From an uncultured Pseudomonadota bacterium (GTDB taxonomy: Bacteria; Myxococcota_A; UBA796; GCA-2862545): a DNA stretch of 64,000 nt. Below are positions 4,651 to 48,653 of this stretch, in pieces; the stretch's first letter is position 1; the number at the start of each line of letters is the position of its first letter. A program made the position numbers and the translations under genes. The stretch covers positions 186,001 to 250,000 of the forward strand of contig CAJXTB010000002.1 of the NCBI GenBank assembly GCA_913061235.1, in the 5' to 3' direction. The notes below the pieces were generated by a model. It was given only the letters and a program-made list of their open reading frames with translations, did no database searches and had not been told where the DNA came from.

Positions 4651-6033
4651 CTAGGTCTTCACGGCAACGCAGAGGAACAAGGGCAGGGTGTTGCCGCCTC
4701 GTGCCTCGGAGTCGCGGGGCAGGGACTTGAGCAGGGTTGCAGCAGCCGTACGACAGGCGACGACCTCGGGTGCGTCGATCTCCATGCCGTTCGCTCGGGC
4801 GATAGCTCGGGGGTAGCCGCGCAAGCGTCGAACGAGTCCTTCAAGGGCAACCGGCTGCAGGTTGGTCGCGGCGTGAACGGCGACCTTCTTGACCGAGAAT
4901 CCAGCCGCTTCCGCACGAATAGCGAGCTGCGGTCCGAGAGCCAGTCCTGGGCGAGCAGTGGCTGGAAGGTCGGAGTATGCGGCGTCCAGTTGACGGTCCA
5001 ACGTGGCGCAAAGGTGGTGAAAAGCCTGGTTGTACTCGGCCAAGTGACCATTGAAGTAGAAGGCTTCGGCCAGGCCATCGGGCTCGACGACGAGCAAGCG
5101 CCCACCCGGTCGCAACACTCTGTGTGCTTCTTCAAGAATGGGACGTGTGTCTTCGGTGGTCTGCAGCGCCCGAATCGCGAGCACAGCGTCGACGCTCTCG
5201 TCTCGTAGACGTAGAGGGGACGGTTCGCCAACATCAATGCGCGCACGTGCGGAGAGGGCGGCGATTGACTTGCGCGCCAAGCCTACCCGCTCTTCGTTTC
5301 GATCAATGCCTAGGTAGGACCAATGCTTACGCCGTGGGAGAATGGACAGCGCGGACCATGCCATACGGCAGTAGACGTCGAGCATCTGGCCGCTGCCAGG
5401 CGGGATGTGCGACAGCAGCAGAGACGTGAATCCTGCGTCCCACCAACCTGTGCTCGGGCCGGAGGCACGCTGGATACCACGGTTGGGATTGCTCACATCT
5501 GGCGGATTGGTACCGCCCATGAAGCTGCCGATGGGCCGGCTCACGGTCATTTCCGACGGGTCGCTGTCCGAGTCAGAGGCGTCACCGTCTCCAGTGCGTC
5601 GGGCTCCAGCGACCTTGACCTTGTCGGCGAGGACGTGTTCGGCAGTCGCCGCAGAGATGCCGAGGTTTGCGGCCATCTCCCGGACGTACTTCTCTTCTCG
5701 GGCACTGATTGAACCGTCGATGAGCATGCCATCAATCGCCATCTCCAAGATGGGCAGGCTCTCGGCCTCACGGTCCGACGCGAGGGACTCACGGTACGAT
5801 TCCGCTTCTTGCAAGACCGCCGTGATGGCGCGGTGATGCTTGAGCAGGAATTTGGCGCGGTCCTTGTACTTGGGGTTGGACTGCATGGACTGCATGCGCT
5901 TGCGCTGCTTGGCGACGGTGTCGGCTGCGTCATCTTCAGAGATGTCGACAGGCACATCAAACGCCGCGAACAGGTCGTCGGCGTTGGATAGCTTGCAGTA
6001 CTGAGAGGCGAGTTCGAGCGCGCGCGCGTCCAT
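4651..6033 (-). CDS. Class I SAM methyltransferase with helical N-terminal domain
   Basis: 460 residues; ATG with GGAG about 6 bases upstream. Residues about 225-345 form a Methyltransf_11-type domain: MLDVYCRMAWSA is a degenerate motif I, YLGIDRNEERVGLARK is motif II, and VDAVLAIRALQ with VLRPGGRLLVVEPDG are later motifs. The N-terminal half is different. It is helical, with KYKDRAKFLLKHHRAITAVLQEA resembling J-domain-adjacent helices, and MAIDGMLIDGSISAREEKYV resembling TerB-like acidic helices. An acidic linker (DASDSDSDPSE) joins the halves. Substrate unknown. The glycine-rich GxGxG loop is weak (DVYCR), so activity needs testing. It is followed at 15 bp by the RCK gene. Confidence 0.75.
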   Translation of the reverse strand: MDARALELASQYCKLSNADDLFAAFDVPVDISEDDAADTVAKQRKRMQSMQSNPKYKDRAKFLLKHHRAITAVLQEAESYRESLASDREAESLPILEMAIDGMLIDGSISAREEKYVREMAANLGISAATAEHVLADKVKVAGARRTGDGDASDSDSDPSEMTVSRPIGSFMGGTNPPDVSNPNRGIQRASGPSTGWWDAGFTSLLLSHIPPGSGQMLDVYCRMAWSALSILPRRKHWSYLGIDRNEERVGLARKSIAALSARARIDVGEPSPLRLRDESVDAVLAIRALQTTEDTRPILEEAHRVLRPGGRLLVVEPDGLAEAFYFNGHLAEYNQAFHHLCATLDRQLDAAYSDLPATARPGLALGPQLAIRAEAAGFSVKKVAVHAATNLQPVALEGLVRRLRGYPRAIARANGMEIDAPEVVACRTAAATLLKSLPRDSEARGGNTLPLFLCVAVKT

Positions 6034-6067: not shown

Positions 6068-9049
6068 TTACGCAGATGCGATGTGTGCGCCAATCTTATG
6101 GGCCAACGCCATGATGGTCAGCATGGGATTGACGCCGGGGCTCGCCGGGAACAGGCTACCGTCGGCAACGTACAAGTTTCCGATGCCATGTACCGCTCCG
6201 TTGTGATCGCAGACCGAGGTCTCGGGATCGGTACCCATTCGCGCAGTGCCGAAGACGTGATTGCTTCCGGTAGGGAAGTCGCTCGCCTTAAAGTCAGCCT
6301 GGCGGATGAGCTCTACTTGGGAGGGGTCATCGAGCACAGCGGGAATGCCATTGAGGCCGGTGATGACGCCCTTGGCGCCTGCGGCGAAGAGCATCTCTGC
6401 GAGCTTTGCGTTGGCTTCTTGCAGGCGACGGATGTCTCCGTCTGCCAGGGTGTACGAGATGCGTGCACGGCCACCCATGGCGCGGACGGTTCCGGAGCTG
6501 GCCTCGCCGCTGGTCCAGGTCGCCCAGGTGGCAACACGGTCGTAGTTGGCCATGTGGCGCTTGAGTGTGCGACCGGAGCCTGGGAAGCGGATGGCCAAGA
6601 TGCTCGGGCTGGCCCACAGCGACTCAAGCTTGATGCCTTCGTCCAAGAACTGCAGACAATGCATGCCTTGCGTTGCACCCTTCCACGGCTCGACCTTCTC
6701 GTCGAACAGACCCATGTGGAAGCCCGACGGATGGAAGCGAAGATTCCCACCGACGATTGCACGGTTAATACCGCTGTTTCGTAGCAGGACAGGGGTGTTG
6801 ATGGCTCCAGCAGCCACAATCACGGTGTCTGCGTGAATCGTGACCTTGTGCGAGCGCTCGCGGCTCTCAGGGTGGCTGACGCGCCCTTCCGCGCCGACAA
6901 CTTGACCGTCTCGCATGAGAAGGCGGTCGACCATGACGGACGTGAAGACGCGCCCACCGGCATCTACGACATCCGGGATGCCGCGTGCGTCTGTGCCGAG
7001 CTTTGCGGCATTGGGGCAGCCAAGTAGACAGCGACCGCTGCCCTTGCACCCGTGTTCGTTGCGCTTGATGGCCTCGCTGGTCCATCCCAGCTCGTTGCAT
7101 GCCTCTTGGAACATCTCGTTCCGTCGGCCCTGAACTTCGGGTTGGGTGGGACGTACACCCATGAGCTTTTCAACAGCGTCGTAGTGGGGGGCTAGGTCGT
7201 CGGTGCTGACGCCCTCCACGCCGTGCTCGGTCTTCCATTTGTCGAGACAGTCGTCTGTCGCGCGCAGGCAGATGGCTGAGTTGAACACGGAACCGCCACC
7301 TAGGCAGCGTGCTTGCATGGTCGGCATGACCACGTTGCCAAGGGACGTGCGGGTTCCGCCTTCGTAGTACCAGCGGGCCAACGACTTACCGGCGTCGTCG
7401 GTGAAGTCTTCAACGCGGGCAACGGGCCCACCTTCAAGAACGAGGACGCGCTTGCCGGTCTGGGCGAGCTCGCGTGCAGCAATGGCGCCGCCGGGACCGG
7501 AGCCGATCACCAGGTAGTCACAACGCTCGACGATATCGCCAGTGTAGTCGCTGTATTCGTAGATGCGTGCGGCATCTAGACGGGGAGCGGCCTCTGGGGT
7601 CATGGCTTCGTCGCGCATGGCTGGCGGTAGCCACTGCTCAGGCACGGCCGTCTTGGCTTGGCGCATGATGCTGGAGAACAGGCTCTTGCCGAGCGTTACG
7701 GCAGGACCTTGGCGTGTGTAGCAGCGAGCCAGGGAAGCATCGACGGCCTTGATGAAGTCTTGCAGGTCGGCGTCTGTGGAGACGATTGGCGGCAGGAACT
7801 TGATGGCGTTGATGCCAGGACCGGGAACTTGAACCAGGACCTTTTCGCTGCCGAACAAGTCCACGTTGATGCTCGCACCGAACGCTGTCTTGTCGGCCAT
7901 GGACATGAGACGCTGCTGGGCCCACAGGGAGGGACGGGCCGACTCGCGGAAGTACACGCTCATCATGAGGCCGTCGCCGACCACGTGATCGATGACGTCG
8001 TGCTTCTTGGCAAGGTCAAGCATGCCCGCGCGCAGGATTTCACCCATGCGGTGGGACTCTGCGGGAGCGTCCAGGTCTTCGAGCACGTCCAGTGTGGCGA
8101 GGCCGGCGGCCATGGCCAGGTCGTTCTCGCTGAAGGGCTCGTCATACGACGGGAACGGAATGCCATCCTTGCGAATGCGGCTCCACAGGTCTTCATGGAT
8201 GAGTGCTGCGGACACAGGCACAGCACCGCCAGACAGGCTCTTGGAGATGGTGATGATGTCTGGCGTGATTCCAGCGGCGTGGCTGCGGAACCAGGATCCT
8301 GTGCGACCAAGGCCGGTCTGGACTTCGTCCGAGATGACGAGAGCGCCGTGTTGACGGCACAGACGTGCGGCTTCGCGCAGGTACTCGGGGTCGAGGGGCA
8401 GAGTGGTCAGGCCTTGTAGGGGCTCAAACATGAAGCCCGCGACGTCACCGTGAGACAGCTCTCGGCGGATAGCGGCAATGTCATTGGGACGCACGGGAGT
8501 ACCGAACAGGGCGACCGGGTCTTGGCCTTCCTTGAGAGCCGGGAAGCCACACATGGAGATGGCCGCACAGCTACGACCGTGGAATGCGCCTTCTAGGTAC
8601 AAGAACCGAGACTTGCGAGTGGCCTGACGAGCAAAGCGCACGGCGATGTCGCTGGCTTCCGTGCCGCTGTTTGCGTAGACCGTGTGTGGGTACTCACCGC
8701 CTGCCAGCACATTCAGACGCTCAGTGAGCAGTGATGCGAGGTGGGAGGCGTGCACGCCATTGAGAGTCGGTGTGCGCCGATCAAGGACGGTGTCCAAGTA
8801 GTGGTGCACGACTGGATGGTTGCGTCCGATGAAGAACACGCCGCCGCCGGCCAGAAAGTCGAGGTAGCGCGTACCCGATAGGTCCCAAGCGTAGGGGCCC
8901 TCGGCGCGTCCAAAGACCGTGCTAAATCCGCCAATGTCCAGCAACTTGGCCAGCTTGGGATGCACGTGCTTCTTGTTCAGGTGGTCGGAGGACGTGAGCA
9001 GCTCTTCGAGGCGTTCGCGAAAGCCACTGTCGGTGTTGATAGCGTTCAT
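6068..9049 (-). CDS. Fusion: class III aminotransferase + GMC oxidoreductase
   Basis: 993 residues. The start is the ATG that overlaps the stop of the upstream small gene (ATGA); the frame stays open further upstream but only as a shadow. Residues about 1-460 are a PLP fold-type I aminotransferase: GGGVFFIGRNHP, then ISDEVQTGLGRTGSWF, then SKSLSGGAVP with the presumed PLP lysine near 270. Residues about 510-993 are a GMC flavoprotein: YLVIGSGPGGAIAARELA (FAD-binding), a Cys cluster CKGSGRCLLGC, HPSG, then SNHVFGTARMG and PGVNPMLTI, which supply the catalytic His and Asn. The Cys-containing GMC type recalls long-chain alcohol oxidases. The two activities suggest oxidation of an alcohol to a carbonyl that is then aminated, or the reverse. 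Substrate unknown. Confidence 0.88.
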   Translation of the reverse strand: MNAINTDSGFRERLEELLTSSDHLNKKHVHPKLAKLLDIGGFSTVFGRAEGPYAWDLSGTRYLDFLAGGGVFFIGRNHPVVHHYLDTVLDRRTPTLNGVHASHLASLLTERLNVLAGGEYPHTVYANSGTEASDIAVRFARQATRKSRFLYLEGAFHGRSCAAISMCGFPALKEGQDPVALFGTPVRPNDIAAIRRELSHGDVAGFMFEPLQGLTTLPLDPEYLREAARLCRQHGALVISDEVQTGLGRTGSWFRSHAAGITPDIITISKSLSGGAVPVSAALIHEDLWSRIRKDGIPFPSYDEPFSENDLAMAAGLATLDVLEDLDAPAESHRMGEILRAGMLDLAKKHDVIDHVVGDGLMMSVYFRESARPSLWAQQRLMSMADKTAFGASINVDLFGSEKVLVQVPGPGINAIKFLPPIVSTDADLQDFIKAVDASLARCYTRQGPAVTLGKSLFSSIMRQAKTAVPEQWLPPAMRDEAMTPEAAPRLDAARIYEYSDYTGDIVERCDYLVIGSGPGGAIAARELAQTGKRVLVLEGGPVARVEDFTDDAGKSLARWYYEGGTRTSLGNVVMPTMQARCLGGGSVFNSAICLRATDDCLDKWKTEHGVEGVSTDDLAPHYDAVEKLMGVRPTQPEVQGRRNEMFQEACNELGWTSEAIKRNEHGCKGSGRCLLGCPNAAKLGTDARGIPDVVDAGGRVFTSVMVDRLLMRDGQVVGAEGRVSHPESRERSHKVTIHADTVIVAAGAINTPVLLRNSGINRAIVGGNLRFHPSGFHMGLFDEKVEPWKGATQGMHCLQFLDEGIKLESLWASPSILAIRFPGSGRTLKRHMANYDRVATWATWTSGEASSGTVRAMGGRARISYTLADGDIRRLQEANAKLAEMLFAAGAKGVITGLNGIPAVLDDPSQVELIRQADFKASDFPTGSNHVFGTARMGTDPETSVCDHNGAVHGIGNLYVADGSLFPASPGVNPMLTIMALAHKIGAHIASA

Positions 9050-9468
9050 GAGACGAAGCCTCCGGAGTTGAATGAGTCGTCGTGTGACGACGTGACGCCC
9101 ATGGCGTCCTTGACTGCAGGACTCTCTGCGTATGCCATGGTTAGCACCATGCGTAGGCCCTGAAACCCCATGCGGCGGGAGTAGTTCGGGCTGTTTTCCC
9201 ACGACGAGAGGTACTCGCGTCGGGTGACGGCGTCTGCTTTGTGAAAGCGGGCACCGGTGCGCTTTTCGCTCCATGCCATTCCCGTGTCAAAGACCCGGAA
9301 GAAGGCGAGTAGCTGCAGGCGGTCGAGGCGGGGCAGGCGCTGCAAGTAGTCCTCAACGTAGGGGACGATGCTCGCTTCAAGGCCGTCGGTGTCAAATGCG
9401 CCGCCCGGCGGAAACATGGTTTCCGCCGCTGCCGTAACGATTCGGCGGTCAAGTTCTGACAATGCCAT
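9046..9468 (-). CDS. Small helical protein, possible GMC partner subunit
   Basis: 140 residues, ATG start. The sequence is mostly helical: LSELDRRIVTAAAETMFPPGGAF at the N-terminus, then PYVEDYLQRLPRLDRLQLLAFF and WENSPNYSRRMGFQGLRM. This resembles the small helical proteins or domains that accompany GMC oxidoreductases (gluconate 2-dehydrogenase subunit 3 type, and the N-terminal region of fatty-alcohol oxidases). No signal peptide is visible. Its stop overlaps the start of the aminotransferase-GMC fusion, so the two are very likely translated together and may form a complex. The subunit role is inferred from context. Confidence 0.7.
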   Translation of the reverse strand: MALSELDRRIVTAAAETMFPPGGAFDTDGLEASIVPYVEDYLQRLPRLDRLQLLAFFRVFDTGMAWSEKRTGARFHKADAVTRREYLSSWENSPNYSRRMGFQGLRMVLTMAYAESPAVKDAMGVTSSHDDSFNSGGFVS

Positions 9469-27147: not shown

Positions 27148-30100
27148 CTAGTTGGCCAGCTCGGGAGACAGGTCGAAGACCCGCGCGAACTCAATGACCA
27201 GAGGAATTTCGTTGGTCTTGATGGCACCGGAGATGAACTCAGGAGGTCCTGGAAGCCAGGCATCGTCGATGATGCGTCGCATGACTTCGGCGGAGGTCTT
27301 CACAACGCAGTCGGCGCTGCCGCCTGTGGGCCGTCCGGCACGAACATCACAGCCGTCGGCGTCTACCGTGACGGTAAACCGTGGGCCCGTTGCGTCGCCC
27401 AAGCTGAAGTACCAAGACATGGGCCGCTGAACGCGGTCCGACGCAAGACGCTCACGTAGACTGTGGAAAGCGGCTTGAATGTCGCGCGGTCCTTCAACCT
27501 TCGGTGGGGCGAGAAGGTCGTCGCTCTCTGGGTCGAAGACCCGGCCATCACGCAGGGCGCTGACAGCGTGTTGCGCCAGGCTGGTGACGGTTCGCGCGGC
27601 GTCTGCTGGACGGCGGTCGGCTAGGGCCTTCTTGAGTCGAGAGATAGGAATGGGCGGGCCAATTCGGACCTCAACCTTGCGACCGCGTGGGAAGAAGGAA
27701 CCCTTCGGCAGCACGTTGTGAGTGCCCTCGAGCCAGATGGGAAGGATGTCGACCTCGGCCTCAAGGGCGAGCTTGCCAACCAGTGGCTTGAAGTCTCCAA
27801 GCGAGCCGTCGGTGCGGCGGGTGCCCTCGGGGAAGAGAAGTACGATGTTGCCGTCGTCTACGATGCGTCGGGCCTGGTCCAAGCTGGCTCGGAATCCGCC
27901 TTCACGGTCGAGCGGGGCGAGGTTGGTCAGCTGCTCAAAGTAGGCGACCCACCACTTGTTGCCCTCGAAGAAGTAGTCCTGGGCGGCCAGGCCGACGATG
28001 CGCTCGCCGTAGGTACCGAGCGCGTACTTGACGAGGCCCATGTCCAAGTGAGAGGTGTGGTTACTCACCACAATGACGTTGCGGTTCTGCGGGATGAACG
28101 CCCGGCCGGTGACCCGTGTGGTCATGGCTTGCGAATACAGCCGACGCTGAGCCGAGGCCAATGCGTTCTTGATGGGTTCCCGTAGCGGAGCCGGAATGTT
28201 GATGGGCTCGTTGGCCTCTTCTTCAACCACATCGATCAGCGCGATTGGAGCTTCGACCAGTCGCACGACATCGCCCAACGTCTCACACGCCATGAGCGCG
28301 GAGGTGTCTGGCTTGTGGTCGGTCGCGGCATCTAGGGCAGCCGCTAGCTCAACCCACATCAGCGAGTCGAAGCCAAGGTCGCCGGACAGGGATGTCGAGG
28401 AACTGAGTGTGGCCTCGCTGACACCGGCAATGGCTGCAATCGCCCGCGGGACAACACCGTCGGCAATCCGGTCTGTGCTCTCTCCGGCGGCGGCCACAAG
28501 AGTCTCCATGACCTCGCGTACCTTGGGTCGTTGGACCTTACGGGTGGATGTTCGCGGAAGTGGGGCGTCGACTAAGTGAATGACGGTCGGGCGCTGGACT
28601 GAGGTCAAGCCCTTGATTCGGTCCGCTAGGGCAGACCGTGCCGCCAAATGCCCGGCATGGTCTGGGTCACTTGGAACAGCGAGCAGTCCGAGACGCTCGC
28701 CACCGCGAGGGTCACTGATGCCAACGAGGGCCAGCTCTTCAATGGCGTCGGGCAGGCCAATGCGCTCCTCGACGTCATCTAGGTAGATGTTCTCACCGCT
28801 GGCAGTGACGACGACGTCTTTCGCGCGACCCACAAGCGTGAGGCGGCCCTTGTGGTCGAGGCGGCCGAGGTCTCCGGTGCGAAGCCACTCACCGTCGAGC
28901 GCAGCGTCGGTCGCGGCATCGTTCTCGTAGTAGCCAGCCATGACGTTCTTGCCACGGGCCTGTACCTCGCCAATCCCGTGTTCATCGGGGTCTGCGATGC
29001 GCAGGGTGACGCCTGGGATGGGCTTGCCAACACTTCCAGGACGTGAGCCGGGTCCGCCTTTGGCGACAGCCAGCACAGGGGCGGCTTCGGTGAGGCCATA
29101 GCCTTCCGCCAGGGAGAAGCCGAGGCCTTGGAACAACGCGTGGGTGTCCTTCGGTAGCGCGGCTCCACCGCTGATCAGCAGCCGAATGTGGCCACCTAGG
29201 CGCCGGTGAACGGAACCGAAAGCGAGCTGTCCAAAGTCGAGACCCGTGGACTGACCCACGGCGCGGTTCGCGCTCAACATTGCGTCGAACCCGAGCTCGA
29301 CGAGACGGCCCCGGTCGCGAACTTGGCCGCGGATACGGCGCTCAAGTAGCTGCCAGAGGGCTGGAACGCCGACCATCGCGGTGATGCGTCCGGCTTCGAG
29401 TCCAAAGGCCAAGCGGTCCGCGTCCAGGGAATCCAAGTACAGGATGCGTGAGCCGCGAGACAGGGGCAGCAACAGGCCGCACGAGAACTCGAAGGTGTGG
29501 TGAAGCGGCAGGACCGACAAGACACGGTCTGAGGGCCGCAGCGGGAAGAGTGCGCCAATCGAGCCCAAGATAGCGGTGAAGTTGCCGTGGGTGAGCATGA
29601 CACCCTTGGGGTCGCCGGTCGTGCCGCTTGTGAACAGGACGGCGGCCAGGTCGGCTTCAGTCGCACGATGCATGGTGGCTTGGGGACCAATGGCCCCGGT
29701 CGCGATGAGGTCGTGGATGTGAAGGTCGGTCTTGGCGTAGCTGGGACTGGCGACGTCATCGACAATCGCGTGGCGGGCACCGGACTTGTCAGCCACACGT
29801 GCGACGTCCGCGGCGGGCATGTCTGCGTCTACGGGCACAACCACGGCACCTGCACACACAACGCCAAACCACGCAATGGGCCACTCAGGACGGTTGCGGC
29901 CGCTCAAGATGACCCGGTCTCCTGGCGCGACGCCGGCTTCTGCCAGACGCTTCGCAACAGCGAGAGCCCGTGTGCGCATCTCGGCGAATGAGACCCGTGA
30001 CAGGCCATCTTCTTCGGTGCGCATCAAGGCGGGCATCAGGTCAAAGCGCTCTGCAACCTCGTCGAGAAGGTCGGTCAGCGTGTCGTACGAAGCGAGCGGT

Positions 30101-31749
30101 TGCTTGTCGCGCTTCATCTTGGCTTCAATCAGCGGAAAGCAGTTCTCTTCGAGACCGGGAACATGGACCTGCTGCATGTAGTGGCGCCAGTCGATGTCTT
30201 GCGGACGGTAGGCCAGCAGCTCCCGTTCATGGTCGCTCATTCGCGCCAGGGCAGACTGAACGTTTGCCGTTGAGAACCGGTAGGTGTGTGTGGCCATGAA
30301 CGGCAAGAACTGGTCGAGGATGTACGCCTTGAGCGACAGTGCACTGGACGCTGTGTCCAGACCCTTGATGGCCGGATTAACGACCGTGGCAAGCGGGGTC
30401 TTGCGAAGTTTCGACAGCCAACCACTCGCCTGGGCGGCGAGCTCACTGACCCGCTTGGGACCGCGGTGAATGTAGGTGTCCGCAGTCATTTGGGTGGGTT
30501 CGAAGCGGGCCATGATGCGGTCGAATGGACTGGCACCTTGCTTGCGAAGCTGCTTTCGTTTGTACAGCGCTACAATCTCGATGAAGCGGGTCACCAACAG
30601 CGGGTTGATGTCGCTAGTACCGAGCTGGTAGACGATCTTGTGGCTGCCTTCCAGAAGCTCCGCGAGTGCGGCAATCATGCCGGCAGCAACGTGGTCGACG
30701 GGGATGATGTCGAGGGTCGAGGTCTTGCTGGTTGGGAAGCGACCGGGCGAGTTGAGGCCCAGGTAGATGACCGGACCGGTGGTGTTGATGCCTTCGTTCC
30801 AGCCGGGGCGCGGAAAGTCCACTGCGGACTCAATGACGGCTGGGCGAACGAGGGTGAACGGTAGTCCGCTATCTGCCAGCACCTGCTCACCAATGGACTT
30901 GGTGTAGGTGTAGGTGTTGTGCCAGCCCCAGAAGACGGCGCGTTCCATGCCAACTTCGGACAGGCGGTTCCGTTCGTACCGTGCGCGAACCCGCTTGACC
31001 TCAGACTCTAGTGCCGAGCCACGGGTGGGCTCCCCGCGCTTGGTGAGGTTGGCCTTGGCCGTGTCTAGGAAGTCGGCTTGGCGGAAGGCATCGTTGGTGC
31101 GGTGGCGAACGTGGTCGACCAGGTCCACGCACTCGGCAATCTCGCGCTCTGCGGACCACAAAGAGCGGTCGAGCTCGTCTGCGCGCGGGAAGGGGAACTC
31201 GCGTGGGTCCACTTCTGCGACTTCACCGGTTCTTCCGCCCGCAACGTAGCAAGTGGACGTGTGCAGGAAGGAGATGTTGCCGAGGTCTTTGGCGAGGGAG
31301 ACCAAGTTCTGCATGCCGAAGGCGTTGGCGCGCAGGGCGTAGTCGAGGGGTGGGTTGAAGTCGACGAGTCCAGCCACGTTGACCAAGGCATCCACGGAGC
31401 CACGAATGGCGTCGCGCACCTCTTGTGGGACACCACCGAACGGCTTCTCGACATCGCCTGGAATTGGTGTGACTTTGCTGCGTAGGAAGTCGTCGAAGTC
31501 GTCACCGTGGCGCTTGCGCAGTGGGTCGAAGCAGGCGCTCGTCGCAATCTGGGACCAAAAGCGTGTCTGCGAGTCCAAGATGACGTCGCCATCTGCGTTG
31601 GTTCGCTGGCGAACGACCATGTGGACGTGAGCGGTGTCGGGAAAGTGGGTGAGCACCATGGCCAACCACACTTTGCCAAGGAACCCCGTTCCACCGAAGG
31701 CAACGAGGCGCTTTCCAGCGAGGGTATCTGCGACGGAGAGCGTGCTCAC
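27148..31749 (-). CDS. Multidomain fatty acyl reductase-AMP ligase-ACP-acyltransferase-SCP2, ElbD-like
   Basis: 1533 residues; GTG overlapping the LarA-like stop (GTGA). Domains in order: acyl reductase with NAD(P)-loop AFGGTGFLGKVW (18-29) and YTYTKSIGEQVL near 280, ending near 550; AMP-forming acyl ligase about 560-1080 with LFTSGTTGDPKGVML near 700 and YGLTEAAPVL; acyl carrier domain with LGFDSLMW near 1125; PlsC-type acyltransferase with NHTSHLD near 1226 and LLFPEGTR near 1305; and a C-terminal SCP2-like domain about 1425-1533. It could activate a fatty acid, load and reduce it, and acylate a glycerol backbone. The order resembles Myxococcus ElbD of ether-lipid synthesis, as I recall it. 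Product not proven. Confidence 0.9.
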   Translation of the reverse strand: MSTLSVADTLAGKRLVAFGGTGFLGKVWLAMVLTHFPDTAHVHMVVRQRTNADGDVILDSQTRFWSQIATSACFDPLRKRHGDDFDDFLRSKVTPIPGDVEKPFGGVPQEVRDAIRGSVDALVNVAGLVDFNPPLDYALRANAFGMQNLVSLAKDLGNISFLHTSTCYVAGGRTGEVAEVDPREFPFPRADELDRSLWSAEREIAECVDLVDHVRHRTNDAFRQADFLDTAKANLTKRGEPTRGSALESEVKRVRARYERNRLSEVGMERAVFWGWHNTYTYTKSIGEQVLADSGLPFTLVRPAVIESAVDFPRPGWNEGINTTGPVIYLGLNSPGRFPTSKTSTLDIIPVDHVAAGMIAALAELLEGSHKIVYQLGTSDINPLLVTRFIEIVALYKRKQLRKQGASPFDRIMARFEPTQMTADTYIHRGPKRVSELAAQASGWLSKLRKTPLATVVNPAIKGLDTASSALSLKAYILDQFLPFMATHTYRFSTANVQSALARMSDHERELLAYRPQDIDWRHYMQQVHVPGLEENCFPLIEAKMKRDKQPLASYDTLTDLLDEVAERFDLMPALMRTEEDGLSRVSFAEMRTRALAVAKRLAEAGVAPGDRVILSGRNRPEWPIAWFGVVCAGAVVVPVDADMPAADVARVADKSGARHAIVDDVASPSYAKTDLHIHDLIATGAIGPQATMHRATEADLAAVLFTSGTTGDPKGVMLTHGNFTAILGSIGALFPLRPSDRVLSVLPLHHTFEFSCGLLLPLSRGSRILYLDSLDADRLAFGLEAGRITAMVGVPALWQLLERRIRGQVRDRGRLVELGFDAMLSANRAVGQSTGLDFGQLAFGSVHRRLGGHIRLLISGGAALPKDTHALFQGLGFSLAEGYGLTEAAPVLAVAKGGPGSRPGSVGKPIPGVTLRIADPDEHGIGEVQARGKNVMAGYYENDAATDAALDGEWLRTGDLGRLDHKGRLTLVGRAKDVVVTASGENIYLDDVEERIGLPDAIEELALVGISDPRGGERLGLLAVPSDPDHAGHLAARSALADRIKGLTSVQRPTVIHLVDAPLPRTSTRKVQRPKVREVMETLVAAAGESTDRIADGVVPRAIAAIAGVSEATLSSSTSLSGDLGFDSLMWVELAAALDAATDHKPDTSALMACETLGDVVRLVEAPIALIDVVEEEANEPINIPAPLREPIKNALASAQRRLYSQAMTTRVTGRAFIPQNRNVIVVSNHTSHLDMGLVKYALGTYGERIVGLAAQDYFFEGNKWWVAYFEQLTNLAPLDREGGFRASLDQARRIVDDGNIVLLFPEGTRRTDGSLGDFKPLVGKLALEAEVDILPIWLEGTHNVLPKGSFFPRGRKVEVRIGPPIPISRLKKALADRRPADAARTVTSLAQHAVSALRDGRVFDPESDDLLAPPKVEGPRDIQAAFHSLRERLASDRVQRPMSWYFSLGDATGPRFTVTVDADGCDVRAGRPTGGSADCVVKTSAEVMRRIIDDAWLPGPPEFISGAIKTNEIPLVIEFARVFDLSPELAN

Positions 31750-34016: not shown

Positions 34017-34248
34017 GTTTTGGCCCCCTGGTAGCCGGTGGCACTAACCCAACGGCAGCATGCGGCCGGATCCGCGCGCAGCCTAGGTAAGGCCCAGAGA
34101 GTCACCAACGCGTCACCTGTGGGGGTTCACAGGCAAAGGGGTATCCAATGGGGTACTACGGGCCGCCTTTGGGGGCTGTGCGCAGGATCGAATGATCTCA
34201 AGTTGCGCAGATTCCTCAATTATTAGGTTTATACGGAGTGTTCTGCCC

Positions 34249-37200
34249 ATGACTCTCATCAAAGTTGTCGGCCGTATGACGGTTGCTTCTCTCGTGTTTC
34301 TTGCGGGGATCCCGTTCGCGGCACCGGCACTCGCTGTCTGTGGTGACGGAATATTGGAGGCCGGTGAAGAATGTGATGCCGGCACCCCAAACGGATTGGT
34401 GGACGGCTGCGACGACACTTGCAACATCCAAGATGGGTTCACCTGTTTTACGCCAGACGGTGCTAATCTAGATTTTACCGGTTTTAACGTTGAAAACTAC
34501 CCGAATCAGTCCGGTCAGGCTGCCGCGTGGAGCCGATCCAATGGCGGGCGCAGAGCCACCCAGACCGGCAACCCCTCGGGTCCGACCTTCTACGTCTCGC
34601 CGTTTCAGGCCACTACCCACCGCTTCACAGTGCGCGTGGAAGACGGTGACAATGACTGGCTCGGATTCGCTCTGGGCTTCACTCCCGGTGATGCGTCGGC
34701 TGCCAATGCCTCTACCGAGTACATCCTCTTCGATTGGAAGCAACAAGAGCAGACCCTAAGTAACGGTGCTCAAGGCTTCGCTGGAACGGGGCTTTACCGT
34801 GTCACTGGCAACCCTTCGGCAGACGATATCTGGGCGCACCGCGCAGGTGCGAACGGCAGTGTCGAGATGTTGGCTCGCGGTATCAACTACGGCGTCATTC
34901 CCGAGCTTGAGCCTGATGACTCAGACGTCTCGTGGGAAGAAGACCGCAACTACGACATCTTCATTGAGTACACCACCTCGCGCATTCGCATCTTCATTGA
35001 CGGCCAAATTGAGTTCGATGTTGCCGGAACCTTTCCGGCCGGTCGAATTGCACCCTTGTCGCATTCCCAGCCGGATGTCTCCTTCACATTCAGCCAGGAC
35101 CAGTCGACCGAGTGTGACGCTATCTGTGGCGATGGCCAAATCGCCCCAGAGCGGTTGAGCGCCAACGGAAACACAATCGACGGTGAAGGCTGTGACGACG
35201 GCAACGCGTTGTCCGGAGACGGCTGCAACCAGCAGTGTGAAGAAGAGCCTTTCTACGACTGTTCTGGCACACCAAGCGTGTGTGGTGCCGAAGCCTGTGG
35301 AGACGGACACGTCGTTGGCGACGAAGCTTGCGATGATGGCAACACCGCTGCAGACGACGGCTGTTCACCCACGTGCGAGGTCGAAGTTGGATTCGAGTGC
35401 GACGACACCATTGACGTCATCCTCGGCGCCCAGGAGTCCAATGATCTAGACCGCCCAGGTGTGTGGACCCTCATTGACGACCGCACGGTCGAGCAGTCCT
35501 CCAACTCACGCGCCACGGTCCTGCTGACGGACCTGCAGATGGCTGGAACGACCGCTACCTTCACAATCGACACCAGCAACGACGACGACGATTTCGTTGG
35601 CTTTGGTATCGGCTACGAAGAAGGGGACTTCAACAGCCCCTTGGCTGACTGGCTGTTCGTCGACTGGAAGCAAGCGTCGCAAGACAGCGCAAGCCGTGGC
35701 ATGGCGCTGAACCGGGCCACTGGACTGCGTCAACGCTTCGCGGACTTCTGGTCCCACTCGGGCTCGGTCACCGAGTTGGCTCGTGCTGCGACCCTCGGCA
35801 ATGCAGGGTGGCAAGACGACACCCTGTACACCTTCGTTGTCACCTACACGACCACCAACATCCAAGTGTCGGTCAACGGTGTGACGCAGTTCAACGTCAA
35901 CGGAACCTTTCCTGAAGGTCGCTTGGCCTTCTACGGCTACAGCCAGGGCGACACCGTGTACAGCCTGCTCAACGTCGAAGTCCCTCCCAGCGTTTGTGAG
36001 AGCGACTGTGGCGACGGCATCATCGCGGCGGACGAAGAGTGCGACACTGGCGTTGTCGGTGCGGATGACGGATGCACCACTTGCGTCGTCGATGACGGCT
36101 TCGACTGCGTTGGCGAGCCGTCCGTCTGTGACGACGACCCAGACGGCGACGGCCTGACTACTGGCGAAGAAGAAATTCTCGGCACCGACCCCAACAATCC
36201 CGACACAGATGGTGACGGCATTGACGATGGCGACGAAGTCAACGGCCTAGATGGCATTCCAGGCAACGGTGACGAGCTCGGAATCGACCCACTCGACGCT
36301 GACTCTGATGATGATGGATTGTCCGACGGTGACGAAGTTGTTGGCCCAGACGGAATCGCTGGCAACAGCGACGACACCGACCCGAACAACTTCGACTCAG
36401 ACAACGACGGCCTCGGTGATGGCCTGGAGCTCGGCGTACCCTTGGGTATCGGTGTTCCCGGCGGCATCAGCCAGCCTGGCCTCATTCCGTTCGTTGGCAC
36501 CGCTCTCGGTTTCCGCGGCGACGCTGACCCAGGCTCCAACACCGACCCGAACAACGACGACTCTGACGGCGACAACCTGCTCGACGGCGAAGAAGACGTA
36601 GACGGCAATGGCAGCTGGACAGGGGATATTGCCGGTACCGATCTGGATGAGACCGACCCCAACTCCGCTGACACAGACGGTGACGGCTTTGATGACGACG
36701 TCGAAGGCGGCGTTGGCCCCGATGCTCCGGACACGGACAACGATGGCATCATCAACGCGCTCGACCTGGACAGCGACGGCGACGGCCTGCCCGACGCGCT
36801 TGAGCTGATTGCCGGAACCGACCCTCGCGACCGCGATAGCGACGATGACTTCTTGGCCGATGGCTACGAAGTTTTGGGACCAGACGGCAACATCAACACG
36901 CCAGACGGCACAGACGCACTCGACAAAGACTCCGACGATGACGGCGTCACCGACGGCTTTGAAGTCAACGGTCCGACTCCCACCAATCCAAACGTGTTCG
37001 ACACGGACAACGATGGTCTAGGCGACGGTCTTGAGACCGGCGTCACCGCACCCATCGCAGCTTCGGTCAACGATCAAGGCACTCCAGTTGGCGGCACCGA
37101 AGGCGTCCTCCAGGTCGACACCGACCCGGGCAGTCGCACCGACCCACAGGCTGCAGACTCGGACGGTGATGGCCTGAATGACGGTGTTGAAGACTTCAAC

Positions 37201-40200
37201 GGAAACGGAAGCTTCGACGGTGACGCCCCCGGCGGCGTCGCCAATGACGAGACCGACCCGAACAACGCCGACACCGATGGCGACGGACCGAACGACTTTG
37301 TTGAAGGCTATGCGGACCGCCGCGACACCGACGGTGACGGCATCGTTGATGCTCTTGAGCCAGGCAACCTGGACACTGACGGCGACGGTCTGACAGATGA
37401 CGAAGAGGTAGCCCTCGGCACCGACCCGACCGACGCAGACACGGATGGCGACGGCATCAACGACGGCGACGAAGTCAAGGGACCGGACGGCAACATCAAC
37501 ACAGATGACGGCACCGACCCACTGGACGCTGACTCTGATGACGACGGCTTGTCCGACGGCGACGAGATCAACGGCGGCGACGACGCGACGGACCCGAACA
37601 ACCCCGACTCTGATGAGGATGGCCTGACCGACGGCATCGAGCTTGGCGTGACCGAGCCCGTTCTCCCCGGCACCAGCGATGATGGCGTGGATTTTGCCGG
37701 CACCGACGGCCCGTTCACCCCAGATGCAGACCCGTCCGAAGGCAACAACACCGACCCGAACGCCCCCGACTCGGATGGTGACACGCTCCTAGACGGTGAC
37801 GAAGACGTCAACCAGAACGGTGCGTGGGACGGCGACCAAGACGGCGTAGACAACGACGAGACCGACCCGAACGATGCGGACACCGACGGCGACCTCATCA
37901 GCGATGCTGACGAAGGCTTCACCGACCGCCGCGATTCGGATGGCGACGACACTATCGATGCTCTCGAAGCCGACACAGATGACTCCGATGGCGACGGCTT
38001 GCCTGATGTTGCTGAAGAAGACATCTACGGTACCGACCCGAACGACGCTGACACCGACGGTGACGGCATCAACGACGGCGACGAAATTGGGGGCCCGGAT
38101 GACGACGTCAACACAGACGACGGCACTGACCCCCTCGACGCCGACTCCGATGACGACGGCCTGTCTGACGGTGCTGAGCTGTTCCCAGCTGACCCGCTCA
38201 ACGGATTCGTGACCGACCCGAACCTGTTCGACACCGATGGCGATGGCCTGGGTGACGGACAAGAGCAAGGCGTCGTGGACCCCGTTGCCGGTGGCAACTC
38301 CGACGGCGACACCCCTGTAGCCTTTGAAGGCACAGACACCGACGTCTTCGTCCCAGACGCCGACACCGACTCTGTCACCGACCCGACAAACGCCGACTCT
38401 GACGGTGACACCCTCTTCGACGGTGACGAAGACATCAACCAAGACGGTGCTTTCGACGGCGACCAGCCTGGCCTGAACGACGATGAGACCGACCCGAACG
38501 ATGACGACAGCGACGACGATGGCGTTGACGACTTCTTCGACGGTGGCCCAGCAGGCCCCGATGGCGACATCGACGGCACGATCGACGCGTTGGACCCCGA
38601 CACGGTTGGCAGCGACACCGACGGTGACGGCATCTCCGACATCGACGAAGCTACGATTACCGGAACCGACCCGCGCAACCCCGACTCGGACGGCGATGGC
38701 CTGACCGATGGCGAGGAGTACAACGGTCCTGACGGTATTCCCGGTAACGAAGACGATACGTCACCCGTTGACGCTGACTCGGACGACGACGGCCTCACCG
38801 ATGGTGAAGAAGCGTTCGGCCCAGACGGCGTCGCGGACAGCGGTGACGAGACGGACCCGAACGACGCCGACACAGATGACGACGGCCTCGAAGACGGGGT
38901 CGAACTCAACGTCTTCGGCACCGACCCGAACGACTCGGACACGGACGACGACAACCTGTTTGACGGCGAAGAAGCCGTCTACGACACCGACCCGCTCCTC
39001 GCGGACACCGACGGTGACGGTCTCGACGACGCCCAAGAGCTGCTTGTCAATACGATGACCGATCCGCTGAACCCGGACAGTGATGGCGATGGCCTCACCG
39101 ACGGCGAAGAAGTGGTGGGCATCGACGGCCTTTATAACACCAATGACGAGACCAATCCCCTCGACCCCGACACCGACGGTGGCGGCGTTCCAGACGGCGT
39201 TGAAGTGCTCATTGAGGGAACCGACCCGAATGCGGCCGGCGACGATGTTGTCGACGACACCGACTCTGACGACGACGGTCTCACCGACGCCCAAGAGCTG
39301 CTCCTCAACACAGACCCGAACAACCCGGACACAGACGACGACGGCATTCTGGACGGCGACGAAGTCAATGACTTTGGCACCGACCCGAAGCGTCCCGACA
39401 CAGACGGCGACGGCGTGACAGACGGCGATGAGATCAACACCGTTGGCTCGGACCCGCTCAACCCCGACACCGATTTTGACGGCCTCACGGACGGCGAAGA
39501 GTTCCTTGGACTCGGCACCGATCCAACAGATGCTGACTCGGATGACGACGGTCTAGACGACGGCGAAGAAGTTCGCTTGTGGAAGACCGACCCCACCGAC
39601 GACGACACCGACGACGACGGCTTGCTTGACGGCGCCGAAGTGGTTGGCGCCGACGGCGTCAAGGGCACCCACGACGAGACGAACCCGCTCAAGGCAGACA
39701 CCGACGGTGATGGCCTTGATGACGGCGACGAAGTGAACACACACGGCTCCGACCCAACCCATCCCGACACCGACCGCGGTGGCGTTCCAGATGGCGTGGA
39801 AGTCCTCGTCCGCAACACCGACCCCACCTCGCCGGGCGATGACCTGCTCGACTTCGGTGACCGCGACAACGACGGCCTGACCGATGCCGAAGAGCTCGCT
39901 CTTGGCACCGACCCAGACGACGACGACTCGGACGATGACGGCATCAGCGACGGCGACGAAGTCGGTGACCTGAACAGCCCGAATCCTCAAGGTACCAATC
40001 CCAACCTCGCCGACACCGATGGTGACGGCGTGGACGACTTGGCCGAACCTCTTGGCCCAGACGGCTTGCCTGATAGCGGTGACGAGACGGACCCGAATGA
40101 CCCGGACACCGATGGTGACGGCCTGTCTGACGGTGACGAGCTTGACGGTGCTGATGGCATCCCTGGCACCGACGACGACACCGACCCGAACGACCGTGAC

Positions 40201-40836
40201 TCGGACGATGACGGTCTGACCGACTTCGAAGAGGAGTTTGTCTACGGCACCGACCCGAACGATGCTGACAGCGACGACGACCGCTTGGAAGATGGCGAAG
40301 AAGTCCTGACCTACGGCACCGACCCGAACGACATCGACACCGATGACGGCGGCGTGCCGGACGGTGTTGAAGTGTTGGATGTCGGCACAGACCCACTGTT
40401 CACCGGTGATGACGACCCCCGTAGCATCGACTCGGACAACGACGGCTTGCCTGACTTCGTTGAGAACGAGATCGGAACCGACCCGAACGACCCTGACACC
40501 GACGACGACGGTCTTCTCGATGGCCGCGAAGTCAACGACACCGAGACCGACCCCCTCGATGCCGACTCGGACGATGACGGCTTGGATGATGGCGAAGAAG
40601 TGGATGGCTTCGGTACCGACCCGAACGATGCAGACACCGACGACGGTGGCGTGAATGACGGCGACGAAGTCGACAACGGGACCAACCCGCTGGACGGAAC
40701 CGACGACCTGACTGCCGGCACCGATCCGAACTACTACGGTGGCGCTTGTGGCGGTTGTTCGTCGTCAACCGCACCTGCCGGTGGCCTTGGTCTGGTCCTG
40801 ATGGGAATGCTGCTTGTGGTGCGTCGTCGCCGCTAA
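34249..40836 (+). CDS. Giant surface protein: DUF4215 + TSP-C-like lectin + TSP3 repeats + MYXO-CTERM
   Basis: 2195 residues from ATG 34249, chosen because the signal peptide ([18 protein letters not shown]) follows directly; the frame starts earlier at 34192. Residues about 30-65, 292-384 and 587-628 are DUF4215-like Cys modules (CGDGxxxxxExCDDGN...DGCSxxC). About 70-290 and 388-580 are two thrombospondin-C/L-lectin-like domains with WKQ-type strands ([20 protein letters not shown]). Residues about 630-2157 are acidic TSP3-type Ca repeats (DxDxDGLxDGxE...GTDP). The C-terminus, [13 protein letters not shown] then a hydrophobic helix then VRRRR, is a MYXO-CTERM sorting tail. Likely a Ca-stiffened surface adhesin. 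Hyper-acidic composition opens long false antisense frames. Confidence 0.93.
36136..40719 (+). repeat. TSP3-type Ca-binding repeat array inside the giant protein
   Basis: About 1500 codons repeat D-x-D-x-DGL(x)DG-x-E and GTDP-N-(x)-D-x-DG-DG at roughly 12-30-residue intervals, with a few units carrying GLDG-type inserts. The repeat is protein-level; DNA copies differ at many codons, so this is not a simple minisatellite. Confidence 0.85.
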
Positions 40837-43209: not shown

Positions 43210-44303
43210 CCCTGATTGTGCTCTGGTTCTGCGGAGTGTCACTCGCGCAATCGCCAATCCGGGCCAACGGCACGTTTGAGGTGCTTCCTCAAACCACGGA
43301 TGTCCGGGTACAACTCCAACATGCGGCCTGGCATCTTGTCGATGGACCGGTTGTAGAGCTGGCTGGAGTCCCCGTAGATGCGCGACGCCTGGCGAAGTGG
43401 GCGGCAACACCGTCGGCCGAAGATGTTCAGGATGCAGTCCGACACGATGTGGCTCGGGCTGTCGACCTAGATGACTTTCTGCTCCTGTTGGATGATGTCA
43501 TTGCCCAAGGGTTCGACTCCACGGTGGTGCTTCCCGCCGGTCGCGCGCGCAGTGCGGGCGTTCTGGTACACCCAACGGACGTGTTTCGGACGGCGTCTCG
43601 CACCTATGTGGGCCGGACCGTTCAAACCGACCGACCGACCCCTCAACGCTGGGTGCCTCCTGCACAAGATGGCGACCCACTCGGCGTGCGTTGGACGACT
43701 CGCTTCGCCAATCCAGGAACGGCGGGCGGCCAGCTTGAAGCCATTCGCAGTGAGCGCCCCAACTCGGACCTGCCGGAGCGCGTGGCATCCCTCGCAGCAC
43801 AGCTCGAAGCCCAGGGAGCCGTGGTCTGGGTGACCAGCACCGCCCGCGACCCACGGCGTGGCTATCTGCTCTGGGGGTCATTCATACTGTCCCGGGCAGA
43901 CTCTGAAATCGGGACGGGCAGGGTCGTGACGCGTCTAGAAAAGGCGCGCCAAGACTGGGGCTTGGAGGTTCCCATTCAGTGGGCTCATCCTGACGGATGG
44001 CGCGCGACGGTTCGAGCAGCAACCGAGATGGCGGAGACCTATGACGTGGTGTACGCCACAGAGCGGGGAGCGCGCTCGTCCAACCACTATGGAGGATTCG
44101 CCGTTGACCTCGTCGCACTGGGGCTTCCAGATTCGCTGGTCCTAGTGGGACCGGATGGCGTTCAGCAACACTTCGACCTGTCTGGCTCGGAACACACTCG
44201 GGACTTGTCCCTGGAACCAGACGTCATTCGGTGGGTTGAACGGCACTTTCGCTTGCGCAAGCTGGACAGCGACTACCCACACTGGACCGATACCGACCGC
44301 TAG
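43206..44303 (+). CDS. Secreted LAS-fold (M15-like) peptidase candidate
   Basis: 365 residues; signal peptide [15 protein letters not shown]. The C-terminal 170 residues show [19 protein letters not shown], then [17 protein letters not shown] (H and D zinc ligands near 295) and YPHW at the very end, the pattern of D-Ala-D-Ala carboxypeptidase/LAS metallopeptidases. The N-terminal half is unassigned. If active it would act on peptidoglycan in the periplasm. The identification rests on motif spacing and is moderate. It overlaps the small membrane gene upstream, and its end overlaps the convergent flavoprotein gene by 4 bp. Confidence 0.65.
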
Positions 44304-45802
44304 TCGCCCAGGACAGCCAGTGCAGCGTGCATGCCTGACAAACCTGTTGCGGGAAGGCCTGGCGATGTCCCAGTGGAGCCAAGGTACAAGCCCTCGATGG
44401 CTGTGCTGTGCTGTGCGAGCGCAGGAGCCGGACGCAGAGCCCAGATCTGGTCCAACGCCATCTCCCCGTGCATGGGATGTCCACCACGATGTCCCCAGCG
44501 CGTCTGAAGGTCGTCGGGAGTGACCACTTGAATGGCGGCAACGTCGTCCCGACCCAGGTCGGTGACGCTCGCGAGTGTCTCGAGCACTCGAACACCCAGT
44601 GCCTGACGTGTTTCGGCGGTCCATCCTGCGTCTTGTTCAGCGCCCACAGTGGTTGTGATCGACATCACACAGTGCCCATCGGGACACAGTCCTTCGGTGG
44701 AGTGTGACGGAATGCGGAGGTCGAGAATGGGGACTCGCGGAAGTCTGCGGTACTTGACGTCGTCAAAGCTGCGCTCAACATCGAGGGGATGTGCGGCAAC
44801 AATGGCGCTGTGTACGACGCGGTCTTCAGCATGTTTGAAGGTCAGGGACCGCTTGATAGCCATGTGGACCTTGGCGAATGTGCCGCGCGTTCGGATCCGT
44901 CGGACCACGTCTGCTTGTGCGACGGGCCGGTGGGAGGGGTGCACCAGGCCTTCAAGAGTCTCAACCGGACCAATGGTCGAGATGACCTGTGCGGCGGTCA
45001 ATGCGGTGCCGTCTGCCAGAACCACAGCACGTGCGCGACCCTTCGCTACTTCAATGTGGTCGACAGGCGCGTCGCACTGAATCTCAACACCCGCGCTGGC
45101 GCAGCTCGCGACGAGGGCGTGAATCAGTGCAGCAGGTCCACCCACAACAGCCTGTCCACAGAGGGCTTGCTGCTGCAGGTACAACGCGGTGCTCTGCGGT
45201 GAGCGGGGGCCCATCCAGCTGCCATGCAGAGCGGGGACGGCGAGTCCGGCGCGAATCAAGGGGTCCGCGAATGACTCCTCCAAGAAGTCGTCCACACAGC
45301 TTGGTCCGACGCGCAACAGCGACAGCATGTCCGCACGACCCAGACGCCGTAGAGCGAGCGCCCGCTTGGCAAGAGGCAGGAGAGCGGCCGTTGTGCTGAG
45401 GACCGGAGGTGTCTGTTCGAGCCACCCTGCCGCCAGTGGTGTGATTCGGGACAGAAAGCCCTGGTGGACGTTCCAGGCGTCTGCGTAGCCGGCATCTGCG
45501 ACTCCGCTGGTGTCCAGCCACAGCCCACGCTCTGGACAGACCACGAAGGCGGCTTTGCGCTCTTCACGCCGCAGGCCGTGCAGCTGTAGGCCGAGAGCAT
45601 CGCTGACGGTCGTGGCGAAATTACTGGCATCATGCCAGATCCCCACGTGTCGGTACCCTGGGTGGAACTCGTCACCCGCACACAGACCGCCGGGACGCTG
45701 GAGTCGCTCCACAACCACCACCCGTTGGCCGGAGCGGGCCAGGTGAGCCGCGGCAACCAGTCCTTCGACACCAGCACCAATGACAACGATTGGGTGTGTC
45801 AT
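44300..45802 (-). CDS. FAD-dependent oxidoreductase, PYROXD2/phytoene desaturase-like (copy 2)
   Basis: 500 residues from ATG 45802, which shares one base with the stop of the upstream paralogue (TGATG); the longer frame is a shadow. N-terminal dinucleotide-binding [35 protein letters not shown], a central substrate-type domain, and a C-terminal [23 protein letters not shown] that closes the FAD site. It is related to the neighbour at 45802 but clearly diverged. Family members include phytoene desaturases and poorly known flavoproteins, so the substrate is open. Last gene of the operon with the GcvT-like gene. Confidence 0.88.
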
Positions 45803-48611: not shown

Positions 48612-48653
48612 TGCCGGCCAACTTAACGCGCGGTCAGTCAGCTTGTCGCTCAA

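Follow-up and report, generated by a model that had tools for sequence, protein, structure and literature searches.

Which enzyme results when a class III aminotransferase and a GMC flavoprotein share one polypeptide, and how are the two joined in genomes that keep their genes in different frames? The question is raised by a gene in a 64,000-nucleotide stretch of DNA from an uncultured bacterium (assembly GCA_913061235.1, contig CAJXTB010000002.1, positions 186,001 to 250,000 of the forward strand), referred to here as the window. On its minus strand, a single open frame links an aminotransferase half (AT) to a GMC flavoprotein half (GMC), preceded by a small gene. The reading that is favoured, and held to be fairly probable, is that AT–GMC is made by a −1 ribosomal frameshift in relatives and is hard-wired in the window, and that it would convert an alcohol via an aldehyde to an amine, assisted by a gamma-type subunit and a 3Fe-4S cluster. 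The families that make up the enzyme are known, and their combination is new. The most unusual part, the apparent frameshift linkage in relatives, was beyond the reach of the initial annotation, which had been made from the window alone.

The fused gene and its small partner

The initial annotation described one 993-codon frame uniting a complete AT with a complete GMC, intact motifs at both active sites, and a small gene overlapping the start of the fusion by ATGA (ORF 9046-9468). All of this was confirmed. The frame (window 6068-9049, minus strand) contains 0 internal stops, and a domain search on its translation places all three Pfam families above their curated cut-offs: Aminotran_3 (PF00202) reaches 218 bits against 30.5, while PF00732 and PF05199 reach 162.8 and 86.2 bits, respectively. 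The automatic list of open reading frames (ORFs) begins the fusion earlier, at 9274, giving 1068 amino acids; the start at 9049 is preferred because of homology and the ATGA overlap. The features of the locus are as follows.

9046..9468, minus strand: gamma-type small subunit (Gluconate_2-dh3-like, 140 amino acids); weak Pfam match, conserved beside AT/GMC
9046..9049, minus strand: ATGA stop/start overlap of the small subunit and the fusion
6068..9049, minus strand: AT–GMC fusion gene, 993 amino acids, single open frame
7742..8917, minus strand: class III aminotransferase domain, residues 45-436; Pfam PF00202 (Aminotran_3), 2e-64
8240..8242, minus strand: codon of the pyridoxal phosphate (PLP) lysine Lys270 (SKSLSGG); invariant in the 19 AT sequences compared
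7574..7609, minus strand: inter-domain linker, residues 481-492; predicted local distance difference test (pLDDT) <50, no slippery site
7484..7504, minus strand: flavin adenine dinucleotide (FAD)-binding motif GSGPGGA, residues 516-522
6728..7369, minus strand: GMC_oxred_N domain, residues 561-774; Pfam 1.4e-47
7016..7048, minus strand: Cys cluster CKGSGRCLLGC (Cys668, 674, 678), putative 3Fe-4S ligands; spacing as in the FAD glucose dehydrogenase of Burkholderia cepacia (BcGDH)
6101..6466, minus strand: GMC_oxred_C domain, residues 862-983; Pfam 3.9e-24
6257..6259, minus strand: codon of the catalytic His931 (SNHVFG), invariant
6128..6130, minus strand: codon of the catalytic Asn974 (GVNPMLT), invariant

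By its domains and motifs, the window gene encodes a bifunctional polypeptide that unites an aminotransferase of class III with an FAD dehydrogenase of the GMC family, beside a gamma-type small subunit. Lys270, Asp241 (in the DEVQ motif) and Gln244 are all present and invariant across the 19 AT sequences; His931 and Asn974 are present and unchanged across the 18 GMC sequences compared. Neither the PLP lysine nor the GMC His/Asn pair is lost on alignment. In an AlphaFold2 model of the fusion, both domains are well folded (mean pLDDT 84), and confidence is low in the linker at residues 481-492. As the predicted template modelling score (pTM) of this model is 0.55, it does not predict the relative placement of the domains or any channel between them. 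An assembly slip is an unlikely origin of the fusion, because independent in-frame fusions occur at loci L063, L085 and L092.

The small protein scores 18.4 bits against Gluconate_2-dh3 (PF13618), below the cut-off of 23.4, which is passed by homologues in the same place at L045 and L092 (26.4 and 27.7 bits). The small gene is a weak and divergent relative of this family, to which, as we understand it, the gamma 'hitchhiker' subunit of BcGDH also belongs. A sequence-profile search of the PDB with the small subunit returned nothing useful. In four genomes of family f4 (L052, L054, L056, L058), gamma and GMC form one in-frame ORF, and this natural gamma–GMC fusion is predicted to fold as a single unit (pTM 0.89). 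No twin-arginine signal was seen at the N-terminus of the small protein, which would fit an enzyme that remains cytosolic together with its PLP partner.

By sequence and fold, the AT half is closest to PigE and to putrescine and acetylornithine aminotransferases. PigE is its best NCBIfam match (1.6e-81), yet the score is 275 bits against a cut-off of 850, and none of the listed NCBIfam equivalog cut-offs is reached by the window AT. The VIA Z scores of the AT domain are 44.6 to PigE (4ppm) and 45.7 to 1vef, each of the two VIA lists being taken up by one domain, so that absence from a list is uninformative.

For the GMC half, fructose dehydrogenase and the alpha subunit of BcGDH rank among the best PDB fold matches; choline oxidase, 5-hydroxymethylfurfural (HMF) oxidase and 6'''-hydroxyparomomycin C oxidase (7dve) are also among its matches. 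The Cys cluster had initially been likened to that of long-chain alcohol oxidases. This reading was dropped, as the cluster instead has the same C-x5-C-x3-C spacing as Cys212/218/222 of BcGDH, the ligands of that enzyme's 3Fe-4S cluster (PMC6719666). Given this spacing, a dehydrogenase is likelier than an oxidase, and electrons would probably exit via an iron-sulfur cluster, unlike in long-chain alcohol oxidases, where they go to O2. The GMC half probably carries such a 3Fe-4S cluster. All three cysteines are kept in 17 of the 18 GMC sequences, and the Mycobacterium copy retains the first only. No multihaem cytochrome subunit occurs in the operon (gamma, sulfotransferase, AT, GMC) or among the scanned genes adjoining the window fusion.

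Gene neighbourhood and proposed chemistry

Both the same fusion and separate adjacent homologues were found in other genomes. Carriers of the same AT and GMC are related Myxococcota-type metagenome-assembled genomes (MAGs) and one Mycobacterium. The usual gene order is gamma – sulfotransferase (Sulfotransfer_3) – AT – GMC, and a START-like gene (DUF2505-like, sub-threshold) is often close to the module. In the window genome, the sulfotransferase and the START-like gene are placed elsewhere (L061), beside a second AT. This AT paralogue (L061:8631-10016, contig C40; 44%) adjoins the sulfotransferase and has Ser in place of the PLP lysine and DESH in place of DEVQ; it is possibly a dead subunit pairing with the fused active AT. 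Mycobacterium sp. 1164966.3 (L092:3415-7877) encodes the module in two ORFs, gamma–sulfotransferase then AT–GMC, overlapping by ATGA. In a sample of 301 genomes from the Mycobacterium family it is the single carrier, and its module was therefore likely gained horizontally. A plasmid search found only distant rhizobial and Embleya neighbours with 26-30% identity. On Sinorhizobium fredii plasmid pSfreGR64b (L039, 5125-12898), a cluster sulfotransferase–condensation domain–GMC–AT–HAD–glycosyltransferase comprises the same set of enzymes in a distant form (about 26%).

In the proposed mechanism, the small subunit would stabilise the GMC half, which would oxidise a primary alcohol to an aldehyde, with electrons passing via FAD and the 3Fe-4S cluster to some acceptor. 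The tethered AT would then convert the aldehyde to an amine, and owing to the tether the reactive aldehyde would remain local. In relatives, the operon sulfotransferase probably sulfates the same product, perhaps a lipid-like one. A lipid-like substrate is weakly suggested by kinship to PigE, by the START-like gene and, at L056, by a fatty-acid desaturase encoded next to gamma–GMC.

We infer this alcohol to aldehyde to amine route, for which an unfused precedent exists. The initial annotation had called the enzyme unusual and possibly undescribed: neither an AT–GMC fusion nor an AT–GMC frameshift is described in the literature searched, so that the fusion is apparently undescribed, but the chemistry has precedent in the biosynthesis of kanamycin and gentamicin, where KanQ/KanB and GenQ/GenB1 act as separate dehydrogenase and aminotransferase in turning an alcohol into an amine (PMC5461906). 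As to the suggestion of an alcohol-to-amine polypeptide with a coupled small subunit, the anatomy is well supported and the chemistry stays inferred. One-chain conversion of an alcohol to an amine is something that engineers assemble by hand from separate enzymes.

The same enzymes could run in reverse, with AT deaminating an amine to an aldehyde and GMC oxidising the aldehyde hydrate to an acid, in a catabolic amine oxidation. Transaminases of class III work in both directions, and two of the structural matches, choline oxidase and HMF oxidase, oxidise aldehyde hydrates. However, the conserved sulfotransferase and the START-like gene suggest the building of a product, and PigE, which among AT families of known role is the nearest, forms an amine from an aldehyde. 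The catabolic direction is regarded as unlikely, if a serious alternative.

The junction in related genomes

In all 11 unfused adjacent AT/GMC pairs (L041-L047, L064, L065, L097, L098), GMC lies in the −1 frame. Ordinary ATGA overlaps likewise yield this frame, so the frame by itself was discarded as evidence for frameshifting, and start codons and slip sites were checked. An in-frame X XXY YYZ heptamer is present inside the last 13 AT codons of every pair (11/11); it is of type A AAA AAN in nine and G GGA AAA in two (L041, L044). Codon shuffling gave P values of 0.004-0.02 per locus for the nine pairs tested, namely the first nine (L041-L047, L064, L065); L097 and L098 were fetched once the rule had already been stated. 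Among 137 other genes from the loci, only one has a slippery site in its last 25 codons. Such a site is absent from the seven ATs that this GMC does not directly follow (L049, L050, L053, L055, L057, L059, L061), none of which has an A run above 3; in L049 and L050, an AT2–GMC2 gene comes directly after the stand-alone AT. It is also absent from the in-frame AT–GMC fusions (0/4: window, L063, L085, L092). The longest A run in the window linker is 2, with no X XXY YYZ, and the window lineage thus has no slip site, with AT–GMC hard-wired in frame.

In 8 of the 11 pairs (L041, L042, L044, L045, L047, L064, L065, L097), the GMC frame has no ATG, GTG or TTG ahead of the FAD strand, and in L064, L065 and L097 the AT stop falls within the conserved GMC N-terminus. 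A strong Shine–Dalgarno (SD)-like sequence lies just upstream of both G GGA AAA sites (L041 and L044, duplex −9.4 and −10.2 kcal/mol), and an SD-like sequence is also visible at L098. A downstream stem-loop was considered as a shared stimulator and is unsupported. Together, the junctions point strongly to a programmed −1 ribosomal frameshift that joins AT to GMC in relatives. Ribosomes would slip back at A AAA AAN, or at G GGA AAA with the upstream SD-like stimulator, just ahead of the AT stop. In such genomes, automatic annotation is likely to take the GMC gene wrongly for a truncated one.

Several points weigh against the favoured reading. The frameshift product is a prediction from sequence. 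RNA structure downstream of the site does not consistently exceed that of shuffles (z −2.4 to +1.2). Family f4 genomes hold AT and GMC in separate places, so fusion is not essential, and the AT/GMC pair is present in some genomes only. On the enzymatic side, substrate and reaction direction are proposals, and the 3Fe-4S cluster rests on motif spacing, with two of the three cysteines missing from the Mycobacterium GMC. The remaining points concern the junction itself: besides the frame shared with ordinary ATGA overlaps, there is an ATGA start in L098 and, 29 nucleotides past the AT stop, a possible GTG start in each of L043 and L046, and at 5 of the 11 loci a CTG overlaps the AT stop (CTGA) and might act as a weak start.

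These junctions speak for ordinary translational coupling, in which GMC of the relatives starts at CTG or a downstream GTG and the A runs merely encode a Lys-rich AT tail. In addition, the gamma-to-GMC junction of G004 and G016 has a CTGA with a conserved LTLPPL peptide after it, resembling a CTG start; these junctions sit in L048 near 10800 and in L051 near 9306. Yet L047, L064, L065 and L097 contain neither a canonical nor a CTG start from the slip region to the FAD strand, only ATC/ATT. Moreover, A runs are missing altogether from the ATs that this GMC does not follow, and most AT-less genomes use a plain ATGA or GTGA at the gamma-to-GMC junction, without a slippery site. Ordinary coupling is judged quite improbable.

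Transcriptional slippage on A7-A10 runs could also join the frames in place of ribosomal slippage, and most sites do have 7-10 consecutive A. Against this, the site in L041 and L044 is merely G3A4 with an SD-like stimulator, and A7 (L043, L046) is short for such a mechanism, which leaves slippage by the polymerase with little credit. Sequencing or assembly indels in homopolymers, with the gene truly fused everywhere, are very improbable: the slippery sites are mostly homopolymers and the genomes mostly MAGs, but the same frame recurs in 11 genomes of about nine genera, two genomes have no long homopolymer, and the slip site is kept while the AT tail sequence diverges.

Proposed exchange of forms and known counterparts

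A tree was built on concatenated AT and GMC, an AT-only tree with distant outgroups being poorly resolved. In the concatenated tree, the four in-frame fusions do not form one clade (approximately unbiased test, p 2.6e-22) and four changes are counted; the in-frame fusion appears to have arisen about four times. Three of the four have frameshift-type sisters: L085 groups with L046 (98/98), L092 with L064/L065 (96/97) and L063 with L042 (91/94). The position of the window is unsure, its nearest neighbour by path being L047. The frameshift form is spread over about nine genera. Counts overstate independence because the sequences are related, with L041/L044 and L064/L065 being congeners. Repeated exchange between frameshift and fusion is expected if both forms give the same protein.

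A further proposal, for which confidence is evenly divided, is that one gene yields a set ratio of AT alone to AT–GMC via the −1 frameshift, that this ratio is the selected property, and that the frameshift was repeatedly swapped for other solutions. These would include the in-frame fusion (window, L063, L085, L092) and possibly a duplication that gave an AT plus an AT–GMC fusion whose AT site is degenerate (L049/L050). The lysine-less AT copy beside the sulfotransferase in the window genome is a possible case of the latter. The 11 frameshift-type pairs, 4 in-frame fusions and several split cases form a natural replicate set, which allows a direct test of why a cell sets the ratio of a lone enzyme to a fused pair. 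Few cellular (non-viral, non-mobile) bacterial frameshift genes permit this question.

Other arrangements of the pair were also observed. In G004 and G016, a second AT–GMC fusion follows right after the stand-alone AT (L049:9779-12421 and L050:7240-9651). The Asp of DEVQ is lost in both second-fusion ATs, and the lysine is also lost in L049; on the GMC side, Asn is changed to Asp in L049 and GMC_oxred_C is undetected in L050. These second fusions look like pseudoenzyme partners. In G128, a genus mate of G297, a short AT N-terminus is joined out of frame to GMC (L068:1450-3024), with GMC running from segment residue 37 on, which resembles an internal deletion of an AT–GMC gene.

Elsewhere in the window, 34 nucleotides after the fusion, a gene at 4651-6033 encodes a class I methyltransferase domain behind about 200 N-terminal amino acids without a Pfam match; it is not retained beside AT/GMC in relatives. 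A single chain of 1533 amino acids (27148-31749) combines NAD_binding_4 (Male sterility), AMP-binding, PP-binding and acyltransferase domains, and a surface-type protein of 2214 amino acids (34192-40836) carries bacterial TSP3 repeats and DUF4215. At 44300-47391 lie two flavin amine oxidase-like genes that overlap by ~225 nucleotides as longest-ORF calls, with a GCV_T-type gene (47388-48653) next to them.

Among known systems, PigE, the 2-methyl-3-n-amyl-pyrrole aminotransferase of prodigiosin biosynthesis (PDB 4ppm), shares the class III AT fold and is among the top PDB sequence and fold matches. It acts on an aliphatic aldehyde, from which it forms the amine. PigE has an N-terminal extension, whereas the window protein has a C-terminal GMC domain. 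BcGDH (alpha and gamma) and fructose dehydrogenase share with the window enzyme the GMC fold, the small gamma subunit and the Cys spacing. Unlike it, they are periplasmic, with a gamma subunit exported by the twin-arginine route and a haem subunit, whereas the window enzyme is tied to a PLP enzyme and its gamma subunit has no twin-arginine signal. In aminoglycoside 6'-amination, KanQ/KanB and GenQ/GenB1 likewise use a dehydrogenase and an aminotransferase to make an amine from a primary alcohol. They differ from AT–GMC in being separate proteins that act on sugar substrates, with no gamma subunit or sulfotransferase.

For the linkage itself, the −1 frameshift of E. coli dnaX takes place on a slippery A AAA AAG, and an SD-like stimulator lies upstream of it. 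There, one protein is made in two lengths, short and long, whereas in AT–GMC a second enzyme domain is added. In magnesium chelatase, the enzymes are different, but the arrangement is alike: overlapping ORFs are joined at A_AAA_AAR by programmed frameshifting in bacteria and archaea, other species have hard-wired fusions as counterparts, and the same exchange argument was used (PMC3711429, PMC5009743).

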